Part shown: in pieces, positions 1,666-18,097 of the stretch
Numbering within the stretch: the first letter of the stretch is position 1
Layout of the letters: the number at the start of each line of letters is the position of its first letter
NCBI GenBank assembly: GCA_003566775.1
Contig: PXBW01000057.1
Location: forward strand, 1 to 35,068
Direction: 5' to 3'
DNA length: 35,068 nt
Origin: a candidate division WS1 bacterium
GTDB lineage: Bacteria > Armatimonadota > Zipacnadia > Zipacnadales > UBA5352
Notes under the pieces: generated by a model
Databases searched by the model: none
What the model was told of the DNA's origin: nothing
What the model saw: the letters and a program-made list of their open reading frames with translations, nothing else
Position numbers and translations under genes: made by a program

Positions 1666-4059
1666 CTATCGCAGATGCGTCCGGAATGTCAACGATCCTG
1701 TCACATTCCTCATCCCCAGAAGGCTGATACTGGCCGTCCCCCAATCCTCCATGAACCAGCGCATCCCCGCGTTGACATAATCGGAGTCGTACTCGGCTAT
1801 CGCGTGGGCTGCATTCTCTCCACCGATGGACCACTCCAGCCCCCCGAATACCGGCTCGTATCTTCCGCTGCCGACGCCCAGGTGCCCGCGTAACCGGTCA
1901 TGCTCCCACGTCGCCACCGCGTACTCGCCCTCGCCCAGGTAGGAGACGTGGGTTCCGAACATCACGTCCTGTGCGCCCACCGCGATGGCGGGAAACCACT
2001 CTCCCCGCTGCCGGTTGAGCCGATAATGCACGTTGAAGCTGCGGTCGAGATTGTAATCCCAGTCATACGCCTTTGCATCATAGAAGAAGGTCAATCTGCC
2101 GACCAATTCGAGATTCGGCAGAAAGCCAAACCCGAGAAATGTCGGCATGGCATCCGTGTCGTCACCCGCAACCTTCGAGTGTTCGCGATTGAGGTACGAC
2201 ACCCCCGCGAAGAGCTCTCCATCCGCGGCCACATCGGCGGTAGGTATTCGGATCAACCCGCTAGTCCCCTCGTAGCTGGGCGCCACGGGCCACGTGGTAT
2301 CCGACGGGCGATCCTCGCGCTCCGCCAGCCTGGCGCCCTGCCTTTGAAGGTAGGCCGGAGACAGTTCCCCGCGAAAGCTCTCGAGGTCCTGAGGGCCCTG
2401 CAGGTAGTCGCCGCGCACGGCAACACTCGACACGTAGTCGAACCGGAAAGCCCTGTCAGAACGCAGCCTCAACTGCTCGGGCTCCGCCGCTCTTCGTGGC
2501 CCCAGCGGGAGTGAGATCTCGAACGCAAGGCTCTCCCTGCCGTCATCAGTGCGGTTCGCGCGTGCCTCGATCACGCTCTCTCCGTAACGTCTGCGCAGAG
2601 ACAGCGTGGCGCCTCGCTCGCCGCTCTCCGTAAACTGTCCATAGCTCAATCTGGTGTTGAGGCCAGCGTCTCCCCAGTCATACTGGTAGTAAGCGGTTGC
2701 ACCGGCGGCTCTGTCGGTGGGATCGAATCCGGACTCCGAACTCACAAGCGTGCCGACCAGGCCGAACTGGTGCGCGTCCGAGTCCGTCCTCAGTTCTCCG
2801 TAGTAGCCATGGGCGAGGTCGTCGAACTTACCGACCGATCCGGTCGCGAGGAAGTCGCGGGACGGCCGCCCCACCCAAGTCAGCAGCCCGCGGTCCATGG
2901 TAACCTGCTGTCTGGAAGTGAGCTGTGCGGGAAAACGCAGATTGGCCCATAGCCCCGGTGCAATAGTGGTCTGCAGATTGGTCAGCAGAAAGTAGTCACT
3001 GATTATCGGATCGGATTCAAGCCCGATGGCGTATTCAACCCCGGGGCGAAGCAGCAGATCGGTTCGCAGATGGCTCTGATTGCCTTGCGCTATCACCTCA
3101 ACCGGTGTCGCCAGATCCGCCGGCCCTGCAGCGACCTCCCATTTATCCGATAAAGTCTCACCTGACAATATACCCGCCGTCATCCTGGCGCAGTCGGCCA
3201 GATCCACCACCACATGACTGACCACGACGTCGTGGCGCTTGATCTGCACCGTGACCCTCATGGGCGGCAGAACTGTTGTCGCGACCTCCAGCGCTCTGGC
3301 CAGCGCATCGATGTCACTGCGCCACGTGCGGTTCTCGAACTCGATGGACCACATTCCGGTGGCATCGGTGGCGATTGCTATGTTCTCAAGCCCCTCCGTC
3401 GAGAGTCGCTCGAGGAGCGCCTCCGCCGCCACCGCCGGATCGACGGCCGCCGCGTCTCCATCGTCGGGCGCTTCCCCTGTTGGCGATTCATCGATAGTCT
3501 CCGCCGGCGACCTCTCCGGCGGCGGCTGAGCGACCGACTCGCTATCGCCAGCAACTACGTCTCCCTCCTGGACGATACGGCTCGAGGAACGGGCCTCCTC
3601 CGAACTCTGCCTCCGCGGCGCGCGCACTTCATTCACGCCCGCCGCCGCCAGTGCGGCGCCGAGCAGGCTGTCGATCTCCGCGCGCTGCGCCTCGTTCACT
3701 GTGGAGGCGAGGACGCTGTCTATCTCTTGAAGATCTACTCTCACCTCGATGAGCGTCCGTCGCCCCTCGACATTGCGCAGCCTTATTCGCCCCACATCGC
3801 CGGCCAGAGGCTCGGAGAGGCGCAGTACGGCGGCGAGCGCCATCTCCGGGGCCGGGCCGTCCTCCTGGAGCGTGTAAACAACCAGAAGCTCGTCGTCCGG
3901 TGAGTCGATTCTATCGACATCGACCCCAATCTCCGCCAGGGTCTCCCGCATCGCCTCGGTGTACGCACGGATATCCCGCACAGCCTCAGCGGCGGGCCGT
4001 GCGTACGCGATCACGCTTGCCGAGACGATAACGATAACGGTTACGAGTACGCGTTTCAC
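1666..4059 (-). CDS. YjbH-like exopolysaccharide biosynthesis outer membrane beta-barrel protein
   Basis: 797 aa with signal peptide; C-terminal part PSYEGTSGLIRIPTADVAADGELFAGVSYLNREH...GLEWSIGGENAAHAIAEYDSDYVNAGMRWF is characteristic of YjbH. GTG start overlaps the upstream stop (GTGA). Confidence 0.8.
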   Translation of the reverse strand: MKRVLVTVIVIVSASVIAYARPAAEAVRDIRAYTEAMRETLAEIGVDVDRIDSPDDELLVVYTLQEDGPAPEMALAAVLRLSEPLAGDVGRIRLRNVEGRRTLIEVRVDLQEIDSVLASTVNEAQRAEIDSLLGAALAAAGVNEVRAPRRQSSEEARSSSRIVQEGDVVAGDSESVAQPPPERSPAETIDESPTGEAPDDGDAAAVDPAVAAEALLERLSTEGLENIAIATDATGMWSIEFENRTWRSDIDALARALEVATTVLPPMRVTVQIKRHDVVVSHVVVDLADCARMTAGILSGETLSDKWEVAAGPADLATPVEVIAQGNQSHLRTDLLLRPGVEYAIGLESDPIISDYFLLTNLQTTIAPGLWANLRFPAQLTSRQQVTMDRGLLTWVGRPSRDFLATGSVGKFDDLAHGYYGELRTDSDAHQFGLVGTLVSSESGFDPTDRAAGATAYYQYDWGDAGLNTRLSYGQFTESGERGATLSLRRRYGESVIEARANRTDDGRESLAFEISLPLGPRRAAEPEQLRLRSDRAFRFDYVSSVAVRGDYLQGPQDLESFRGELSPAYLQRQGARLAEREDRPSDTTWPVAPSYEGTSGLIRIPTADVAADGELFAGVSYLNREHSKVAGDDTDAMPTFLGFGFLPNLELVGRLTFFYDAKAYDWDYNLDRSFNVHYRLNRQRGEWFPAIAVGAQDVMFGTHVSYLGEGEYAVATWEHDRLRGHLGVGSGRYEPVFGGLEWSIGGENAAHAIAEYDSDYVNAGMRWFMEDWGTASISLLGMRNVTGSLTFRTHLR

Positions 4060-5537
4060 CAGTTAAACACCCTGTCGAGTGTGCCGATTATGCCCAGAAT
4101 AGAGAGAGGATCAGCCAGTTGCTCCCGAATACCCCTGCGAGGCTCGCGCGACGGCACATAGAGCGTGTCGCCGGGCTTCAGTTGCCAGTTCGCCGCCTCA
4201 TTCTCTCCCTGCAGCAGCCCTCTGGCATCGAGCTGGACGACCGTGGGCCTGCCGCCCTCCTCGCCGCGCCGCACCAGGGCGACCTGCTCCGCCACCGCTT
4301 CCGATCTCAGCCCGCCCGATCTCGCCAGCGCATCGGCCACCCGAGTCTGCTCATCCCACGGGAAGAAACCGCTCGACCCCACCGCACCCAGCACCACGTA
4401 AGACTTGTCCCGCGCCGGTACCAGCACAATGTCATCAGGCTCGATGAGCATTCGCGCGATCTCGGTGTCCTGACCATGCATCATCGGTCGAATATCCACG
4501 ATCTCCTTCTCGCCATCCGCATGGATAATCGTCACATTCTCCGGATTCGCCGCCTCCGACGGCTGCCCGGATAGCGCCAGCGCGTCGGCCAGTGTGATAC
4601 CCTCCCGGTGCTCGAACCGCCCCGCAGACTGCACTGCGCCAGTCACCGCGAAGTACTGCATCTCCGGATCCGGCGGCGCCGGCGGCACCCAGAGAACGTC
4701 ACCTCCGTACACCGGCGGCGGCTCGATCTCACGGTTCAGCACCAGATCGACAGCAAAGCTGTCGATGGAGCCGTCGCCGCGCAGGATCATCGCTCGCTCG
4801 CGGTCCGCCTCCTTCCCCACCCCACCGATCTTCACCAGCAGTTCGAGCATGTCGAAGCTGGGGCGGTCGGGTGGGAGAGGGATCTCGCCGGTGCGGCCAA
4901 CCGCGCCGAGGACGCCGACGTAGCGGATCTCCTGCTCGGGGACCATGAGGACATCGCCGGCGCGGATCTCGGTCTGTCCGGCCTCCGGATCGAGTTGTCC
5001 GCCGAGGTCCACGAGATCGGTGCTGCCGTCGTCGCGGTATATGCGCACCCGGCTCAAGTCCGCCTCCGGTTTCGCGCCGCCCGCCCGGGTGAGTACCTTC
5101 GTGATGGTCCCGGCGCCGGTGGGCAGCTCCACCGCCCCGGCCGAGGCGACGGCGCCGAGGATGTACGCAACGGGAGCGCGCATTTCCGTGACGTTTATGA
5201 CAACATTGGGTGAACGCAGATGGCGGCCGCCCGGGCCGAGAGCGTGTTCGATCTTATCGGTAAGCTCCCGGACAGTCATGCCCTCTACCAGGATCTCGCC
5301 GGTTGCAGGATATGTTATACGCCCGTCGGGTCGGACACCGACCGAGAGGCTCCACTCCTGATGGCCCGCGACCTGAATGTTGAGGCTGTCGCCAGCACGG
5401 ATTCTGTACACGAAGCCTTCCGCCTCGTCGGCTGAAGCGGAGGCCAACAGCGTGGCGGCGAGCAGTGCGCACAACGCCAGGCGCATCGGCGCTCGCCTGA
5501 GTCCCGACAGCGATCGGATGACAGGTATCGATATCAT
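4056..5537 (-). CDS. Wza-like polysaccharide export protein with N-terminal Poly_export domain and four SLBB domains
   Basis: YRIRAGDSLNIQVAGHQEWSLSVGVRPDGRITYPATGEILVEGMTVREL, then four SLBB-type repeats (VAYILGAVASAGAVEL, YVGVLGAVGRTGEIPL, YFAVTGAVQSAGRFEH, YVVLGAVGSSGFFPW). SD AGGAGG before ATG. Confidence 0.88.
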   Translation of the reverse strand: MISIPVIRSLSGLRRAPMRLALCALLAATLLASASADEAEGFVYRIRAGDSLNIQVAGHQEWSLSVGVRPDGRITYPATGEILVEGMTVRELTDKIEHALGPGGRHLRSPNVVINVTEMRAPVAYILGAVASAGAVELPTGAGTITKVLTRAGGAKPEADLSRVRIYRDDGSTDLVDLGGQLDPEAGQTEIRAGDVLMVPEQEIRYVGVLGAVGRTGEIPLPPDRPSFDMLELLVKIGGVGKEADRERAMILRGDGSIDSFAVDLVLNREIEPPPVYGGDVLWVPPAPPDPEMQYFAVTGAVQSAGRFEHREGITLADALALSGQPSEAANPENVTIIHADGEKEIVDIRPMMHGQDTEIARMLIEPDDIVLVPARDKSYVVLGAVGSSGFFPWDEQTRVADALARSGGLRSEAVAEQVALVRRGEEGGRPTVVQLDARGLLQGENEAANWQLKPGDTLYVPSREPRRGIREQLADPLSILGIIGTLDRVFNW

Positions 5538-5689
5538 TGCGCCTCCTCACGGACCGGTGCAGGTCAGAGTGACTCGAAGCTTAGATATTCGTCATCGCTT
5601 CAGGGATACCTTCTGCGGATTTCCGTAACGACGTCAGTATTGAATGGCTTCATTGACAGGATCATTGTCATTAGTGTAATTGTAGTTCG

Positions 5690-6149
5690 TCAGTTGGCGC
5701 CGTACAGCCGCGGAACCTCGCGGGGGGCGCGTTGCGACTGCTGCGCGGACTGCCGACCGACCGCATGGCCGATGCCGGCGAAGATGAGGAGCACGGCCAT
5801 GAACTGTGAGTACATCCCAAACACCTCGCCGGTCACTGAGGTCCTGAGGGTGTAGCCGACGACGACAGGTGCGAGCCGATTCTTCCGCCACACTTCGCGA
5901 AAGCCCACCACATCGTGAAAGAAAAGACCAGCCGCAGCGCAGCGCGACGCCTGCCAGCGCCACCACGCCGCGATCAGGGCGCTCCACCACACGATTGGCC
6001 AGCCCCCAGACGAGTAAACCGCCACCCGCCATCAAGGTCAATGCCCGGAGATCCGCAACACTCACCGTAATCCTCCCGCCCGCCACGGGTATGATTGCGC
6101 TCTCACACGGCAGATATGGATAGACAGTCGCATGGCATAAAGGTTGCAC
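5690..6149 (-). pseudogene. Frame-disrupted small integral-membrane protein, possibly an O-antigen ligase/polymerase remnant
   Basis: Two overlapping minus-strand frames look genuine in complementary halves: upstream GGRITVSVADLRALTLMAGGGLLVWGLANRVVERPDRGVVALAGVALRCGWSF and downstream FHDVVGFREVWRKNRLAPVVVGYTLRTSVTGEVFGMYSQFMAVLLIFAGIGHAVGRQ. The frames meet near the T-run TCTTTTCTTT at about 5918-5930. Confidence 0.45.
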
Positions 6150-6499
6150 GGTCAGACCGCGCGTAATCGAACTCTACCGCGAATCGGCGAGAAAAGCAAG
6201 GCAACGCAGGATTCTTGTCCGCCTCGCCAGCAGCAAGCGCGCAATCAACCAAGCACGTTCACCGACGGGACGATGGAACAGCCTTCAGCCGCCTGTACCG
6301 ACGACACAGGCGCCCGCACCCGCACCGCCGCGGGTGGCGTGATGGGTGGCACCGCTTCACCTCCCACGACTGGCCGCGTGGAGCAGCGTTTCGCAACGTA
6401 TCTCCTGCAACACTCGGTTTCGCTGTGCACATTGCGATGGATCTGACGATAAAGAGCATTCTTCGGGCGTTCAGTCGGTTCCGCAGAGGTCCAATGCCC

Positions 6500-8386
6500 T
6501 TACTCCCCGGCGGCTTCGGGTGCGAGTTCAATGATCTCCGATGGGTCGGCGGGGTCGCAGACGGCATCGAGCAGGGCCTCGGCCTCGGCGCGGGAGGTCA
6601 TCGCGCGCCGCGCGCGGGCCATAAGCTCTGAAGGCGAGAGGTCCAGTTCGTGGCCGCTGTTGATGGAGATGCGCTGCACGCGGCGGCAGCGCGTGCTCTC
6701 AAGCTCCTCATTCGGGCTGTGGAGCCGCTCATGCACCTTCTCACCACGACGCAGGCTGGTGATCCTGATGGCCCCGGGCCGATCGGGATCGCGGCCGTTC
6801 AGCTTGAGGAACTCGCGTGCGATCTCGTAGATGCAGATGGGCTCGCCCATCTCCAGCACGTAGATGTTACCGCCCTCGCTCAGGGCGCCGGCCTGAAGCA
6901 CGAGGAACGCGGCCTCCTCGACGGTCATGAAGAAGCGGGTGGCCTCCGGGTGTGTGACGGTTAGCGGTCGGCCCTCGAGCGCCTGCTGCTTGAAGATGGT
7001 GAGCACGCTGCCGCTGGAGCCGATGACGTTGCCGAAGCGCACCGCAGTGAAGTTCGTTTCGCTCTCCCGGTCAAGCCCCATGATCAGGATCTCCGACAGA
7101 CGCTTGCTCGCGCCCATCACGTTGCATGGCTCGACGGCCTTGTCGGTGGAGATCGCCACGAAGCGCTCAACCCCGACTGCATCTGCCGCGAGGGCCACCA
7201 CTCCGGTACCGAAGACGTTGTTGCGTACCGCCTCGCGGGGATGATCCTCCATGAGATAGACATGCTTGTGGGCACCGGCGTGAAAGACCACGTCGGGGCG
7301 GTGGCGCATGAAGACCTCCCGGACATGGCCCTCATTGGTGAAGTTGCAGATACAGGTTGTAAGGCGGATCTGCGGGAACGCGCTTTGCAACTCCTGATAG
7401 ATCGAGTGGATCCGGTTCTCCCCGCGGCCCAGAAGGATGATCTCGCGAGGCTGATAACGACATAGCTGGCGACATATCTCGGAACCGATGGATCCGCCTG
7501 CTCCGGTCACGAGGATGGTGCGTCCGGCGACATAGTCGGGGTCCAGCTCGAGACTGATGTCGGTCATATCGCGGCCGAGCAGGTCCTCGAAGGAGAGGTC
7601 GCGGACGTCCTCGAGCGCCGCTGTGCCGTCGCCGGTCTCAAGCAGCCGCGGGAGGGTCCGCACGCGCGCTCCGGTGTCTTCTACATGCCTGAGCATCCGC
7701 CTGATGCGCCGTCCGGAGGCGGAGGGAGCGGCGAGGATGATCTCCTCGACGTCGAATCTCTCCACGATTCGGGGAAGGTCCGCTCCGGTCCCAAGCACGC
7801 GATGCCCTCCGACGATCATCCCATTCAGTGCAGGGTCATCATCGACGAAGCCGAGGATCCGGTAGGGGGAGTCCGCTGATGTCTCCGCGTGATGGATGAA
7901 GGTGGAGCCGGTGTGTCCCGCGCCATAAACCACCACCGGGGTTCGATCTCCGTTCTCGCCATCGGCGTCGGAGTGCCACACAGTTCTCCTGAGCTGGCGC
8001 CAGCCGAATCTGGAGCCGCCGATGAGCAGGCACGCAACCAGCCAGGTGATCATCAGGATGCTGCGCGAGAAGATCGGGGGGCCCGCGTAGAGCAGACCCA
8101 GGGAGCCAATAAGGAGCGTAATGGTGACCGCAAAGAGTATGGCGAGGGCAGCCTCAGAGCGCGCGTACGCCCAGACACGGTTGTAGAGACCGAGAAGGCT
8201 GCCAAAGACGATCATCAACGGGGTGAGCCACAGAGATGCAATCCGGAAGAACTCCCACCAGAGGGGCGGTATCTGACCGTCGAATCGCAGCCAGATCGCC
8301 ATGAGGATGGCCGCATTGATCAGCAGTGCATCCAGGAGGACGAGCAGAGCACGATGCCATCTGACGCCTGTGCGAGCTTCCGACAC
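6500..8386 (-). CDS. Polysaccharide biosynthesis NDP-sugar 4,6-dehydratase/epimerase, CapD/WbpM/PglF type with N-terminal TM region
   Basis: 628 aa; four N-terminal TM segments, CoA-binding-like VVVYGAGHTGSTFIHHAE, then SDR domain ILVTGAGGSIGSEICRQLCRYQPREIILLGRGENRIHSIYQEL and FVAISTDKAVEPCNVMGASKRLSE. GTG start with GGAGGG upstream. Confidence 0.93.
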   Translation of the reverse strand: MSEARTGVRWHRALLVLLDALLINAAILMAIWLRFDGQIPPLWWEFFRIASLWLTPLMIVFGSLLGLYNRVWAYARSEAALAILFAVTITLLIGSLGLLYAGPPIFSRSILMITWLVACLLIGGSRFGWRQLRRTVWHSDADGENGDRTPVVVYGAGHTGSTFIHHAETSADSPYRILGFVDDDPALNGMIVGGHRVLGTGADLPRIVERFDVEEIILAAPSASGRRIRRMLRHVEDTGARVRTLPRLLETGDGTAALEDVRDLSFEDLLGRDMTDISLELDPDYVAGRTILVTGAGGSIGSEICRQLCRYQPREIILLGRGENRIHSIYQELQSAFPQIRLTTCICNFTNEGHVREVFMRHRPDVVFHAGAHKHVYLMEDHPREAVRNNVFGTGVVALAADAVGVERFVAISTDKAVEPCNVMGASKRLSEILIMGLDRESETNFTAVRFGNVIGSSGSVLTIFKQQALEGRPLTVTHPEATRFFMTVEEAAFLVLQAGALSEGGNIYVLEMGEPICIYEIAREFLKLNGRDPDRPGAIRITSLRRGEKVHERLHSPNEELESTRCRRVQRISINSGHELDLSPSELMARARRAMTSRAEAEALLDAVCDPADPSEIIELAPEAAGE

Positions 8387-8660: not shown

Positions 8661-9065
8661 TTAGAAACCTCCGCCTCCCTGCTCATGTCCTCCACCGATC
8701 GTTGTGGTGCAGGCGATGACGGGGACGCGGAAACGAACCTCAATGTCATCCACGACGGTCACTATCGTCCGCGTGCCCGGAGGAATACCGGGGATGAAGT
8801 AATACCCATTGGCGTCGGTTGTCGTCTCACGGTCCGGGTATTCCTCAATGTAGACATGCATATCTTCTGCAGGCACGTAACCATCCGGTGCAACACGGCT
8901 ACCGCTTATGATTGGTGAGGTGCCGTCGGGCAACACGTACACCCAGCCCTCAACCTTACCCTTGATGCAGCAGGGGTCACCATCGCATCCGGTGGTCATC
9001 ACCATGGCGATGGAGACACTGACTACCGCTATGAGTATCCCGAGTCCCGTCGACCTTGCTATCAC
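8661..9065 (-). CDS. Predicted small lipoprotein with carboxypeptidase-regulatory-like (CarboxypepD_reg) beta-sandwich
   Basis: 134 aa; N-terminal hydrophobic segment and lipobox-like VMTTGC; GKVEGWVYV...TTTDANGYYFIPGIPPGTRTIVTVV typical of CarboxypepD_reg folds. Starts 54 bp downstream of the SLH-porin stop. Confidence 0.65.
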   Translation of the reverse strand: MIARSTGLGILIAVVSVSIAMVMTTGCDGDPCCIKGKVEGWVYVLPDGTSPIISGSRVAPDGYVPAEDMHVYIEEYPDRETTTDANGYYFIPGIPPGTRTIVTVVDDIEVRFRVPVIACTTTIGGGHEQGGGGF

Positions 9066-9118: not shown

Positions 9119-11014
9119 TCAGAAATGGAGCGTAGTGCGCAACTGAAACAGGTTACTGTGACAAGTCGGGACAACGCCCGAAGGCGACTGATGGGCCCAG
9201 ATAAAGCCTGAGGTGACTTCCTCGGATATTTGCCGTTCGTAGCCCACAGCGAATAGCTCGTCGTAGTAGAGGCGATGCAGGGGCGAAGCCGCCCATCTGT
9301 CACTCTTAGCCGACAGATTGTAGTAAAGCAGGCGCAGTGTGGACCTCGCAGATGGCGTCCAGCGCACATCGGCGCCCAGCGTCTCGATATTGGGCAGTGC
9401 AAGCGGGCGATATAGCCAGCGTTCGTACGGCAGCATGACCGAGTCGGGGATCGCCAGCAGGTCTTCATAGTAGGGATGGATCGAGGAGTATACGATGTCA
9501 TACTCCGCATCGATGTTGCTGTAGATGCCGCTGACCTGCCAAGCGTCGTCGGCCCATAGATCCGCCAGCACCATGAGAGCCTCGGGCGAGTCGTTATCGG
9601 GGAAGGTGTCGGTCTTTCTGTTGGCATGCTCATAGAGACGGGCGTACTCCACCCGAATGTCTCGTTCCGACGCATAGCGCCAGCGGAAATTGACACCGGC
9701 CGCCCTCTCGCGGAATCTCTCACCCTCGCGCGTCTCATATCCGTAACCATCGATGAGCCAGGGAACAGAAATCGACCAGTTATCCTGCGTATAGCTCAGT
9801 GAGGCGGAGGCGTAGAGGTTCGCGACATCCGACCAGGGCGCGATGATGTGCTGAAAGTTCGAGCCGCCGAGAAACGCCTCGAGCCCAAGGCCACTGCCTC
9901 CGATATTGTCGAGACGCAGATGCGCGCCCTGCTGCGAGAGACGTTCGTTATTCACGACGAGACCGAGGCCGTACTTCTGATACTGTCTTCCGAGGCGCCA
10001 GGTGGCCTGGCCGGGCCAGGCGTGATCGAAGGAGACCCATGCCTCGTCGAGGTACACGTCGTCAACACCGTAGCCTTCATCAGGATCGGGTACGGGTTGG
10101 GGCACAGCGAGGGGTGGCCCGCGCATAACTTCCGCGCCGAGGACGGAGAGTGGCTGGCGTCGGGTGGTGTGCTTGATGGCGATCCGGGCATGGACACTGT
10201 CGGGGTTGATTGCACCCTCGGCACCGATGACCGCGGAAAGCGCATCGTACGGCTGCAACTCGCTGCAGCCCTGACCGATTCGGTAGTCCACCATACCGAA
10301 CATGTGCGGGAAGCGGGGCCTGGCTTCAATCTGCTCGACGCGGCCACGAAGATCATCCAGTTGTCCGGAGAGCTGATCGGCATCCTCGCGAATTGCGGCC
10401 AACTCATCCGAGAATTCGCGTGTGAGCCCCTCGACGATTTCCTCGACCTCCTGGAGGTCGGCGGCCGGTCCCTGAGGGCCGGTCGGTCCGGGTTCTCCAG
10501 CGGGTCCCTGTGGTCCGGGTTCTCCAGCGGGTCCGCGTGGTCCAGTCTCACCGGCGGGTCCAGCGGGTCCCCTCTCTCCCGGGGGGCCCTCGACAGTCAG
10601 GTCATCGATCTGCGACAGCAGCCTTGAGATAGCCATGGCGAACTCGTATCGGGTAATGGGCCTGTCGCCGCTGAAGCCACGGTCCGGGTAGTTGATGATG
10701 ATCCCCCGATCGATGAGGATCTCGACGGCGTCATAGGCCCAGTGACCGAGTGGTACAAGACCAAGATCCGCCTCGACATCTTCCAGGGGGAGTTCTTCTT
10801 CGCGCGGCGGTGGTGGTCCAGGGGGACGAACTCGCTTCCCGTCGGCAAGCCTGGTGCCGTCTCTGAGCGAAGTCATCTCGTCGACGGAATACGCTTCCGA
10901 TCCGTCAGACAGACCGATGTCAGTCAACTGTCCCTCTGTTGCCTGACCATGGATCGGAGCGATCAGGAGGCCTGTCAGAACGACGCTGAGCACAGTGTTT
11001 AGAGCGATGCGCAT
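9119..11014 (-). CDS. SLH-domain outer membrane porin-like (OmpM-type) protein with collagen-like Gly-X-Y stalk, coiled coil and C-terminal beta-barrel
   Basis: Signal peptide; SLH motif [45 protein letters not shown]; 14 consecutive GXY triplets; coiled coil [41 protein letters not shown]; barrel-like remainder ending in aromatic FQLRTTLHF. Confidence 0.85.
10463..10588 (-). repeat. Collagen-like Gly-X-Y repeat (14 triplets) within the SLH porin CDS; DNA shows imperfect internal repetition
   Basis: [42 protein letters not shown], residues 143-184 of the 631 aa ORF. Confidence 0.95.
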
Positions 11015-13626: not shown

Positions 13627-13856
13627 AATGTCACCTTCTTGAAGACTGCTGTTTGCCGTCTAACTGACGATCAGTTCCGTGACGCAGTTCCGATTTCCTG
13701 CCTTTGAAGGTGCCGATGTAGAGCATCGGGAAGCAAGCTGCCGCAACTCCCGCAGATTCCCCAATCTCTGACCACCGTCCGATCGAGATTGGAACCGAAG
13801 CGCGGGTTCGCCGTTTATAGAACGTGGGATAACGATGTCAGTCGAGGTGTTCGGTG

Positions 13857-15452
13857 ATGCTGCGTAGCGCGGGAGTTGCGATTGCAGTGTCAGCGGGTGT
13901 CATGTTCATCAACTGTGGGAGGTGTCCGGCGATGGAAGAGATTCCCCGGTGGAGCGTCTGGGAGGTAGAAATGACCGGAGAGGTCCAGCACGGGAGATTG
14001 CCCGAAGCGGTCGGCGGAACCGTGGAGCTTGTGTCGCCGGGCGGGGCGGAGCATCGGGTCGAGGCGTTCTGGGATGGTGGAAGGTCGTGGCGAGCGCGCT
14101 TTGCTCCGGGTGAGGTCGGCGACTGGACGTGGCGCAGCCGCTCTGATGCCGATGCCGCGCTCGACGGCGCGAGCGGGCAGTTCCGCTGCGTGGAGGCGAG
14201 TGAGGATCAGCCGCTTCATCGGGGCCCGCTGCGCGTCTCAGATGACCGCCGGCACCTTGCGCACGGCGACGGCACGCCGTTCTTCTGGCTGGGAGACACC
14301 GCGTGGAACGGGGCGCTGCGCGCGAACGAGGACGACTGGGCGGAGTATCTGTCGCTGCGCCGCGAGCAGGGCTTCAACGTGATTCAGTTCGTGACGACAC
14401 AGTGGCGTGGCCGGCCGGGAGCCGGGGTCTACGATGACACGGACGGCCTGACGGTGAACGTGGAGGCGTTCCAGCGGCTCGACCGCATGGTAGCGGCGGT
14501 CAATGAGCACGGTATGGTGGCCGCGCCGGTGATGCTCTGGACGCTGACGGAGCGGGACCCGGGGCAGACGCTGTCGGAGGAGCACGCGATCGCCCTCTGC
14601 AGGTACATGGTCGCGCGCTGGGGAGCGTACAACGTGGCGTGGTTGCTCGGTGGCGACGGGCGTTTCCCGGAGGAGAGCATCGAGCGCTGGAGGTGGATCG
14701 GGCGCGCGGTCTTCGGCGCCGACCATGACCGACCGGTGACGATGCATCCGTGCGGGTCGCGCTGGGTGGAAGAGGAGTTCGCGAGCGAGCCGTGGTTCGA
14801 CTTCATCGGCTATCAGAGCGGTCACGGACTGCCGGAGAAGACCTCGCGCTGGATAGCGAAGGGACCTCCGGCGAGGGCGTGGCGGACACTGGAGATGCCG
14901 ATCATCAATCTTGAACCTAACTACGAGGGGTTCCCCGCCTACGGATCAGAGCACATCATCAGCGCACACGATGTGCGGCGCGCGGCGTGGCTGAGCATAC
15001 TCAGCACCCCTCCGGCGGGGGTGACATACGGAACGAACCCCATCTGGGTCTGGCATGAGGAGACGGGCCCGGCGCCCGGGCACTCGAACCTTACGAGCGT
15101 GCAGCCATGGCGAGAAGGGCTTGAGTCAGAGGGCATAGAGGGGATGACCGCTCTGCGTGAGATCATCGACGACCTCGAGTGGTGGCGGCTGCGTCCCGCG
15201 CAGGAGCTGCTGGCGAATCAACCGGGCAGCGATGATCCGCGGGACACGATCGTTGCTGTGATGACCGAGGAGCGCGATCTGCTTGTCGCGTACACGCCGA
15301 GCGGTAAGGAGATTGCCCTGACCGAGGAGGACCTGCCCGCACAGGCTATGTGGCGGGACCCGCGTGACGGCAGCAGCCGTCAGGCCGACATTACGGACGG
15401 CACATTCTCGGCGCCTGATGAGAGTGACTGGCTGCTGATATTGCGACGCTGA
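13857..15452 (+). CDS. DUF5060 + DUF4038 apiosidase-like (GH140-type) glycoside hydrolase with C-terminal putative collagen-binding domain
   Basis: WSVWEVEMTGEVQH...AFWDGGRSWRARFAPGEVGDWTWRSR (DUF5060-like), then HLAHGDGTPFFWLGDTAWNGALRANEDDWAEYLSLRREQGFNVIQFV (DUF4038-like TIM barrel). ORF track starts at GTG 13854; ATG at 13857. Confidence 0.8.
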   Translation: MLRSAGVAIAVSAGVMFINCGRCPAMEEIPRWSVWEVEMTGEVQHGRLPEAVGGTVELVSPGGAEHRVEAFWDGGRSWRARFAPGEVGDWTWRSRSDADAALDGASGQFRCVEASEDQPLHRGPLRVSDDRRHLAHGDGTPFFWLGDTAWNGALRANEDDWAEYLSLRREQGFNVIQFVTTQWRGRPGAGVYDDTDGLTVNVEAFQRLDRMVAAVNEHGMVAAPVMLWTLTERDPGQTLSEEHAIALCRYMVARWGAYNVAWLLGGDGRFPEESIERWRWIGRAVFGADHDRPVTMHPCGSRWVEEEFASEPWFDFIGYQSGHGLPEKTSRWIAKGPPARAWRTLEMPIINLEPNYEGFPAYGSEHIISAHDVRRAAWLSILSTPPAGVTYGTNPIWVWHEETGPAPGHSNLTSVQPWREGLESEGIEGMTALREIIDDLEWWRLRPAQELLANQPGSDDPRDTIVAVMTEERDLLVAYTPSGKEIALTEEDLPAQAMWRDPRDGSSRQADITDGTFSAPDESDWLLILRR

Positions 15453-15500
15453 CGGCACCCTCGCGAACTTGAGGCGAAGGAGGAGGCGTTCCTCCCCCGT

Positions 15501-15580
15501 CCCGGCTGCGCCGGGCCACCCCCCTCCTTTTCGCGCGGACGCCGCCTGCGGCGGGTCCTGGCGCGAGGGCAGGAGGGGGG
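15501..15580. terminator. Compound hairpin between convergent genes; candidate bidirectional terminator or REP-like element
   Basis: CCCGGC-TGC-GCCGGG (15501-15515), then outer stem CCCCCCTCC (15519-15527)/GGAGGGGGG (15572-15580) enclosing CGCG/CGCG, GGAC/GTCC and CGCCG-CCTG-CGGCG. Confidence 0.6.
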
Positions 15581-15630
15581 AACGACGGGAACGAAAGCAG
15601 GGGACGAGGAATGATTTCGCGCAAGCGAAC

Positions 15631-16437
15631 TCAGGAGGAGGGGAACTCCTCCCGCAGTCGCTCCCGCGACTCCTCGTCCAGCAGGAAGCCGATGTCCTCC
15701 TCCATGTACTCGCGCGTGATGTCGAAGATGTCGCGGATGCGCACGTTGGTCACCAGCGCATCGCCGATATGCGTGGTGCGCAATACGCCATGCAACTCAA
15801 GCACCTCGCGCATCTTGCCGAAGTCGTTGCGGTAGCCTTCAAGTCGCAGGAACTCCAGCGCCTCAGAGGGGACCTCGGTCCCGTCCTCGAGGATCACCGT
15901 CGATCCGACGTAGTCGCGATGATAGCGATAGGGCACGCGCATGAACTCCTCGACCGCGTGAAGCTCGGTGCATGAGGTGAACTCCACGCCCAGCAGCAGG
16001 CACCACGCATCGTGATCGTAGAGACGGTGGAAGGTGCTGCCCTCGCCGAAGCTCGACTTGCCCTCATCGATCACCGCGTCGGTGTGCGGGCCGATCGCCG
16101 CCACCGAGTGGCAGACATGCGTCGAGCGCTTCGCCTCCTCGCGCAGCCGGAAGGTCTCGGGGATGATCCCCATCTCCTTCTTGCACGAGGTATTGCGCAC
16201 GTCAAAGGTCACGCGTTCGGCCTTGTGGGCGTGGCCCCAGTCGAAGGTCGGCACCACGACCGTGCCGCTCTCGCCTACCGTCTCGAGCAGCGCATCGATC
16301 ACCGTGTCCGCGCCGCCCTCTACATGTCCAAACGCGCTGAGCGAGGAGTGTACCAGCACCACGTCGCCCTCGCTCAGCCCAACCTCGCGCAGTCCCTGCA
16401 GAATGTCCTCTTTCGTCACACGCGTCTTTTCAGTCAT
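15631..16437 (-). CDS. AAC(3)-family aminoglycoside N-acetyltransferase-like protein
   Basis: 268 aa; GLSEGDVVLVHSSLSAFGHVEGGADTVIDALLETVGESGTVVVPTF and HVCHSVAAIGPHTD, HRLYDHDAWCLLLGV match the Antibiotic_NAT family. Confidence 0.88.
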   Translation of the reverse strand: MTEKTRVTKEDILQGLREVGLSEGDVVLVHSSLSAFGHVEGGADTVIDALLETVGESGTVVVPTFDWGHAHKAERVTFDVRNTSCKKEMGIIPETFRLREEAKRSTHVCHSVAAIGPHTDAVIDEGKSSFGEGSTFHRLYDHDAWCLLLGVEFTSCTELHAVEEFMRVPYRYHRDYVGSTVILEDGTEVPSEALEFLRLEGYRNDFGKMREVLELHGVLRTTHIGDALVTNVRIRDIFDITREYMEEDIGFLLDEESRERLREEFPSS

Positions 16438-16747
16438 AGTAAGCTCCCTCGTGCCTGCTTGCGGTCCGCGGCATGCATTCGCCGGGCGACCCCGCGGCGC
16501 CTCCCCGCGATCGACGTCCGCCTCCTGTCGTTTGCCGTTCGGAGGGACGCATGTGTCGTTTACATGCGTCCGTCGTTACGCAGTGACGACCGATGGGCCG
16601 GCCTCGCCCTTCCCCCTCGCTAACGCTCGGGGCGGGCTCGTGCGGCCCCTCCATCTTGCACAGCAAAGGCTGCGATGCAGGTCTGTCCGCAATCGTGGCG
16701 AAGCAAGTCCGAAAGATCTGATGGATTGCGGACGGAGAGTGATCGTG

Positions 16748-18097
16748 ATGCCCGCGGAACGGCCCAACATGATCGTGATATACACCGACGATCTCGGCTA
16801 CGGCGATCTCTCGTGCATGGGGCAGACGGATGTGCGCACCCCGCACCTCGACGCCCTCGCCGATTCGGGCGTGCGCTTCACCGACTGGTACTCCAATTGC
16901 GCGGTCTGCTCGGGCTCGCGCGCGGCGCTGATGACCGGCCAGTATCCCGACCACGCGGGGGTCAACGGCGTGCTCCCCAGCCACCGTGAATCCGAGGGCC
17001 TGCCCGATTCAAAGCGCGGGAATACCATCGCCCACGCCCTCGGCGAGGAGGGATACCGCACCGCGCTCTTCGGCAAGTGGCACCTCGGCGTGACCGAACG
17101 CTCGATGCCGCACAACTTCGGCTTTCAGCAATGGTTCGGCCACCTCTCCGGATGTATCGACTATTATTCGCACCTGTTCGTCTACGGCCAAAATCGCGGC
17201 GTGGACCCGCTGCACGATCTCTGGGAGGACGGTGAGGAGATCTGGCGCAACGGGGAGTACATGACCTCGATGATCACCGAGCGCTCGGTCGAGCACGTCC
17301 ACGAGTGCGCGCGTGACGGCGATCCGTTCTTCCTCTACACCTCGTACAACGCGCCCCACTACCCGATGCATGCGCCGCAGGAGTACGTGGACCGCTTCGA
17401 CCACCTGCCGTGGGACAAGCAGATAATGGCGGCGATGATCGCGGCGGTCGATGACGGCGTGGGTGAGATCGTGGCGGCGCTGGAGGAGGAGGGCATCCGC
17501 GAGGACACCTTCATCTTCTTCTCCTCGGACAACGGCCCGTCGCGGGAGACGCGCAACTGGCTCGACGGCACGAAGGACCCCTACTACGGAGGCACCACCG
17601 GCGGCCTGAAGGGGCACAAGGGCACGCTCTGGGACGGCGGCGTGCGCATGCCCGCGATCATGAACTGGCCGGGAACGATCGAGGGCGGGCAGGTCTCCCA
17701 CGAGGTCGGGATCATGATGGACATCTTCCCGACGATGCTGGAGGCGGCGGGCGGCGATCCGTCGCGCTACGATCTCGACGGCGTCTCACTGCTTGACATG
17801 CTGGTGAGCGGCGGGGAGAATCCGCATGACTGGATCGCATGGAACTACGCGGGCCAGCGGGCGATCCGCCGCGGCGACTGGAAGCTGGTGCTGAACGGGA
17901 CCATGCGCGACCGTGAGGAGACACCGCCGCCGATCTGGCTGTCGCGGATCACGGAGGACTTCGGCGAGACGGTGAATCTCGCGGAGGAGAATCCGGAGGA
18001 AGTCTGGTACCTGCGCGAGATCCTCGACCCGTGGGCGGAGGAGCAGGATCGGCTGATCTCGGAGCAGCGGGCGGAGTTCGACGCGCGGGGCGGATGA
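16748..18097 (+). CDS. Arylsulfatase-type sulfatase (alkaline phosphatase superfamily, S1-like)
   Basis: MPAERPNMIVIYTDDLGYGDLSCMGQTDVRTPHLDALADSGVRFTDWYSNCAVCSGSRAALMTGQYP; GKWHLG; FSSDNGPS. Start at 16748 with GGAGAG upstream; the ORF-track start at 16034 is an open-frame extension over AAC(3). Confidence 0.9.
   Translation: MPAERPNMIVIYTDDLGYGDLSCMGQTDVRTPHLDALADSGVRFTDWYSNCAVCSGSRAALMTGQYPDHAGVNGVLPSHRESEGLPDSKRGNTIAHALGEEGYRTALFGKWHLGVTERSMPHNFGFQQWFGHLSGCIDYYSHLFVYGQNRGVDPLHDLWEDGEEIWRNGEYMTSMITERSVEHVHECARDGDPFFLYTSYNAPHYPMHAPQEYVDRFDHLPWDKQIMAAMIAAVDDGVGEIVAALEEEGIREDTFIFFSSDNGPSRETRNWLDGTKDPYYGGTTGGLKGHKGTLWDGGVRMPAIMNWPGTIEGGQVSHEVGIMMDIFPTMLEAAGGDPSRYDLDGVSLLDMLVSGGENPHDWIAWNYAGQRAIRRGDWKLVLNGTMRDREETPPPIWLSRITEDFGETVNLAEENPEEVWYLREILDPWAEEQDRLISEQRAEFDARGG

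Follow-up and report, generated by a model that had tools for sequence, protein, structure and literature searches.

A collagen-like block at the junction of the SLH domain and coiled coil in OmpM/SlpA-related porins of Armatimonadota

OmpM and SlpA have been proven to act as trimeric tethers, and their stalks are coiled coils (PMC10628300, PMC9388160). VpOmpM1 of Veillonella parvula (PDB 8bym, 8bys and 8bz2), which binds polyaminated peptidoglycan (PMC10628300), combines an SLH domain, a trimeric coiled-coil stalk and a 16-stranded porin barrel. SlpA of Deinococcus radiodurans (PDB 7zgx) has the same order of parts; its barrel has 30 strands, and its stalk, composed entirely of coiled coil, measures ~28 nm (PMC9388160). 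Binding of SLH domains to a pyruvylated wall polymer has been described in Deinococcus and Cyanobacteria (PMC10628300), and the motifs for cell-wall polymer binding are a W, a GVILG-like motif and TRYE (PMC9388160). SlpA-like/OmpM proteins have also been reported from Armatimonadetes, as proteins made of an SLH domain, a coiled coil and a barrel (PMC9388160). Collagen is mentioned neither in the OmpM structure paper (PMC10628300) nor in the SlpA paper (PMC9388160).

Among the collagen-like proteins of bacteria, the streptococcal adhesins Scl1 and Scl2 carry hydroxyproline-free Gly-X-Y blocks on cell-surface, LPXTG-anchored molecules. Most of the bacterial collagens described so far are adhesins of the cell surface, or parts of spores and phages. 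Bucl8 of Burkholderia is a trimeric outer-membrane protein with a collagen segment that is triple-helical by CD (PMC7682875). It is an outer-membrane factor for efflux that lacks an SLH domain, and its collagen segment lies outside the cell.

The gene considered here comes from a genome of Candidatus Zipacnadia, a lineage of the phylum Armatimonadota, and lies in a stretch of DNA of 35,068 nucleotides that was analysed as a whole (the window). It is a real gene, with an ATG start codon, a Shine-Dalgarno sequence (GGAGGG) at 11024-11019 and homologues in 58 of 61 related genomes. The features of the locus are collected in Table 1.

Table 1. Features of the porin gene and its downstream neighbour (positions in the window; residues counted in the porin)
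Feature	Position	Strand	Basis
Complete gene, SLH-collagen-coiled-coil porin, 631 aa	9119..11014	-	ORF + Pfam
Signal peptide, residues 1 to ~23	10946..11014	-	Read by eye from sequence
Proline-rich segment, ~60 residues (24-85), between signal peptide and SLH	10760..10945	-	
SLH domain, residues 90-126	10637..10747	-	Pfam PF00395 E 6e-8; SlpA + OmpM matches
Collagen-like block, 14 Gly-X-Y triplets, residues 143-184	10463..10588	-	Pfam PF01391 above cut-off
Predicted coiled-coil helix, residues 187-230 (44 residues)	10325..10456	-	AF2 helix; 3.5-residue hydrophobic period, 59 homologues
Predicted outer-membrane porin beta-barrel, residues 237-631, ~18 strands	9122..10306	-	AF2; Foldseek OmpM1
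Small lipoprotein-like gene, 134 aa, carboxypeptidase-regulatory-like domain, 53 bp downstream of porin	8661..9065	-	Pfam weak, below cut-off

A preliminary description of this DNA had listed a signal peptide, one SLH domain, 14 uninterrupted Gly-X-Y triplets, a coiled-coil stretch and a barrel-like C-terminal region ending in an aromatic phenylalanine, and all of these parts were recovered. The signal peptide was seen by eye and the last residue is Phe; Pfam supplies a single SLH domain that passes its curated threshold and a Collagen match (PF01391, residues 143-183) of 31.7 bits against a cut-off of 27.2, and the barrel comes from the AlphaFold2 (AF2) model. In the SLH domain the W and TRYE motifs are present, with GIIIN where relatives have GIIIG, a difference that speaks against the tether reading favoured below. 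Against the NCBIfam model por_somb (iron uptake porin) the protein scores 46.4 bits, below the curated cut-off of 100.

AF2 was given the monomer with an alignment of 14 homologues. The model has a helix at residues 187-230 followed by approximately 18 strands across residues 237-630, most of them with pLDDT values of 75-95. A Foldseek search of the PDB with this model returned Veillonella OmpM1 as the top match (8bym and 8bys; E 4e-11), with a TM-score of 0.60 when normalised to the target length; further porins come next in the list. In a sequence search of the PDB, SlpA of Deinococcus (E 7e-12) and OmpM1 were the best non-collagen matches, with similarity covering the SLH domain and the start of the stalk. 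The match to Scl1/Scl2 is limited to the Gly-X-Y stretch and is far below the cut-off. Downstream of the block, 59 homologues display a sharp 3.5-residue hydrophobic period, with two hydrophobic places per seven and clean a/d positions, which points to a coiled coil. The block itself is modelled as low-confidence coil, as expected for a monomer, so that the model is uninformative on a triple helix. It lies C-terminal to the SLH domain and N-terminal to the first strand, and not in an extracellular loop; hence it is likely to be periplasmic, if the usual barrel topology holds. The protein is thus homologous to the outer-membrane tethers OmpM and SlpA, with a collagen block inserted precisely where the SLH domain meets the conserved coiled coil. 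VpOmpM1, in contrast, has no such block and a shorter stalk.

Runs like the 14-triplet block are expected by chance at about 1e-13, taking the glycine frequency from the remainder of the protein. In the aligned core of the block from 31 proteins, all glycine columns between columns 70 and 103 are 100% Gly, and no X or Y column is invariant, the best reaching 26 of 31. This strict glycine register, retained while X and Y drift, is our main argument that the block is a real triple helix and not a loose linker. At 14 triplets without hydroxyproline it is short, and would have modest stability if alone. The glycine codons of the block are unusual, with GGA used in 11 of 14 cases inside it versus 7 of 45 outside. 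Across the 59 homologues the block likewise has an excess of GGA and a deficit of GGC (Fisher p 8e-19, which is only a guide as the sequences are related), perhaps reflecting avoidance of GC-rich repeats.

Among the Armatimonadota proteins that were read, 59 have the order SLH domain, Gly-X-Y block and coil motif, and a further 44 of the fetched SLH proteins have no block, counts that do not represent frequencies since some loci were chosen through a collagen match. The number of triplets in relatives, which the preliminary description had proposed to check, varies: the 59 blocks range from 6 to 54 triplets (median 13, most 10-16). Of the 59 proteins, 55 have a block whose start lies 50-63 residues into the SLH. 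Collagen repeats occur in all 41 genomes of the same class with at least 80% completeness, and in 122 of the 256 genomes of a phylum-wide sample, a search which by itself does not assign the repeats to a protein. Outside the class the picture is mixed, with several lineages having proline-rich or helical linkers at the site of the block, such as the proline-rich non-collagen linker RPTPTPQPQPQPQPQ of locus L120. Thus, collagen is not essential to the design of the tether. The spacer between the SLH domain and the coil has a median of 55 residues with collagen and 50 without it. Two SLH porins, L027 and L086, have 52 and 54 triplets in two blocks, which would reach a length of about 45 nm when wound throughout. 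The idea that the block is a ruler of fixed length is only partly supported, as 10-16 triplets are the usual size but two proteins reach 52-54, and spacer length differs little between proteins with collagen and those lacking it. Nor is there support for the block having arisen once: a quick tree, built without the block, needs five state changes, of which at least three are forced by well-supported branches, in an analysis that carried long-branch warnings.

Beyond the phylum we read SLH-matching proteins from a sample of 15 genomes (Negativicutes, Synergistota, Thermotogota and others) and from plasmid records, a survey that is not exhaustive. No Gly-X-Y block was found in those of the 15 genomes, and in nearly all cases the matches stop at the end of the SLH domain. 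For the SLH proteins found on plasmids of Cyanobacteria, Deinococcota and Sporomusa, similarity is limited to the SLH domain; the eight of them that were read, those of Deinococcota included, contain no Gly-X-Y run. In cyanobacterial and Deinococcota porins the SLH domain leads to a helical stalk without collagen. The cyanobacterial proteins (iron uptake porin, por_somb) resemble the porin described here in their SLH domain, their barrel and a similar coil motif (EF..ELA.L...VD.LE). Many Armatimonadota have the SLH-collagen-porin layout; every SLH porin that was read from another phylum lacks it. As the block is absent from this sample of other phyla, and the cyanobacterial SLH domain leads directly to a similar coil motif, the collagen block is a drop-in at a fixed junction.

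The host genome encodes a second intact copy of the porin (558 residues, 15 triplets; contig C119), and an SLH fragment is found in contig C147. An Omp85 protein is also encoded, making an outer membrane likely. In this genome, which is 91% complete, the sole OmpA-domain (PF00691) protein is MotB, adjoining MotA, so that neither a Pal nor an OmpA tether was detected. The gene of a CsaB-like pyruvyl transferase runs into a contig end; its fragment reaches 196 bits, where the full-length cut-off is 213, and fits binding of the SLH domain to a pyruvylated wall polymer. This context of Omp85, the CsaB-like enzyme and MotB as the only OmpA-domain protein fits an OmpM-type tether. The order of the porin gene, the lipoprotein-like gene and a sugar dehydratase gene is kept in two relatives (L032 and L209); by analogy with the lipoprotein DR_0644, a partner of SlpA (PMC9388160), the 134-residue protein may be a partner of the stalk. 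Near the porin lies an exopolysaccharide export cluster (1666-8386, minus strand) encoding a YjbH-like protein, an SLBB/Poly_export protein and a nucleotide-sugar dehydratase. Upstream, at 13854-18097 on the plus strand, genes for an Apiosidase-like glycoside hydrolase and a sulfatase suggest polysaccharide breakdown.

The preliminary description had read the protein as an OmpM-like tether, and the homology to OmpM/SlpA, the conservation of the architecture in relatives and the genome context support that reading. Two outcomes had been named there as refuting it, a C-terminal region that fails to model as a barrel and a block placed in an extracellular loop, and neither was seen. We consider it likely that the protein is an OmpM/SlpA-type outer-membrane tether and porin with a partly collagen periplasmic stalk, which would trimerise, form a triple helix, bind the wall and bear load in tethering the membrane. 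The collagen triple helix rises by 0.286 nm per residue, and foldon-type trimerisers are able to stabilise short collagen peptides. By comparison with OmpM1, the C-terminal barrel would trimerise in the outer membrane, and the adjoining helices would form a trimeric coiled coil (~6.6 nm) that brings the three chains into register. From this coil the 14 triplets would wind N-terminally into a triple helix of ~12 nm (42 residues at ~0.29 nm), with the trimers of barrel and coiled coil serving as its nucleus. Three SLH domains at the end of the stalk would then bind the cell wall, probably via a pyruvylated polymer, with the collagen block lengthening the spacer between outer membrane and wall as a stiff, tension-bearing rod.

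An OmpM-type tether could also be built with the Gly-X-Y block as an unwound, extended polyproline-like linker, in which three separate strands run side by side and no triple helix forms. The shortness of the block and the proline-rich non-collagen linkers found at the same position in other Armatimonadota, as in L120, would be in keeping with this. However, a mere linker needs no glycine at every third place, whereas in the aligned core glycine occupies each third residue without exception as X and Y vary, in a family of 59 proteins with 6-54 triplets; moreover, the adjacent coiled coil and barrel would already keep the three chains together. We regard such an unwound linker as unlikely.

More improbable by a wide margin is that the SLH and collagen parts face the exterior and serve in adhesion or in anchoring an S-layer, even though most of the bacterial collagen-like proteins described are indeed surface adhesins. 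Bucl8 offers a precedent, being an outer-membrane protein whose collagen segment is extracellular (PMC7682875), but there the collagen follows the outer-membrane domains and here it precedes them. The block is N-terminal to the first strand, barrel N-termini are periplasmic, and the regions of OmpM and SlpA to which the SLH domain and coil are homologous lie in the periplasm. Least credible of all is a recent simple-repeat expansion without a structural role. A 27-bp partial tandem repeat does overlap part of the block in this gene, but the position of the block is conserved throughout a class and in several further families, although codons and X/Y residues vary, a conservation that already contradicts such an origin. 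We favour a periplasmic collagen triple helix in the stalk.

A second collagen-bearing envelope protein is encoded in the same genome (L205:1649-3781, contig C182). It has N-terminal membrane segments, about 22 Gly-X-Y triplets and a PQQ-type beta-propeller; its gene adjoins one for a polyferredoxin and is also present in a relative (L069). This protein suggests that collagen is a general envelope spacer. A broader proposal, which we advance tentatively as plausible but somewhat short of probable, is that true collagen triple helices serve Armatimonadota as exchangeable periplasmic spacers, in the tethers of the outer membrane as well as in a beta-propeller protein of the inner membrane, with their length helping to set the spacing of the envelope.

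The exact architecture had been put forward in the preliminary description as one not known to be characterised, and our literature search, which took in few subscription papers, likewise gave no description of it and no paper joining SLH or OmpM with collagen. Going by sequence, the combination of SLH domain, collagen, coil and porin appears to be a new stalk variant of the OmpM/SlpA tethers, with Bucl8 as the closest published idea. The natural variation of the block, from 6 to 54 triplets or none, makes the relationship between stalk length and periplasm width directly testable, and experiments are possible as the relatives include Chthonomonas calidirosea, of a cultured genus. If our interpretation is true, the collagen fold would have a new use, carrying load from the outer membrane to the cell wall, and a tether for which an ancestral role in diderm Terrabacteria has been proposed (PMC10628300) would gain a new type of stalk.
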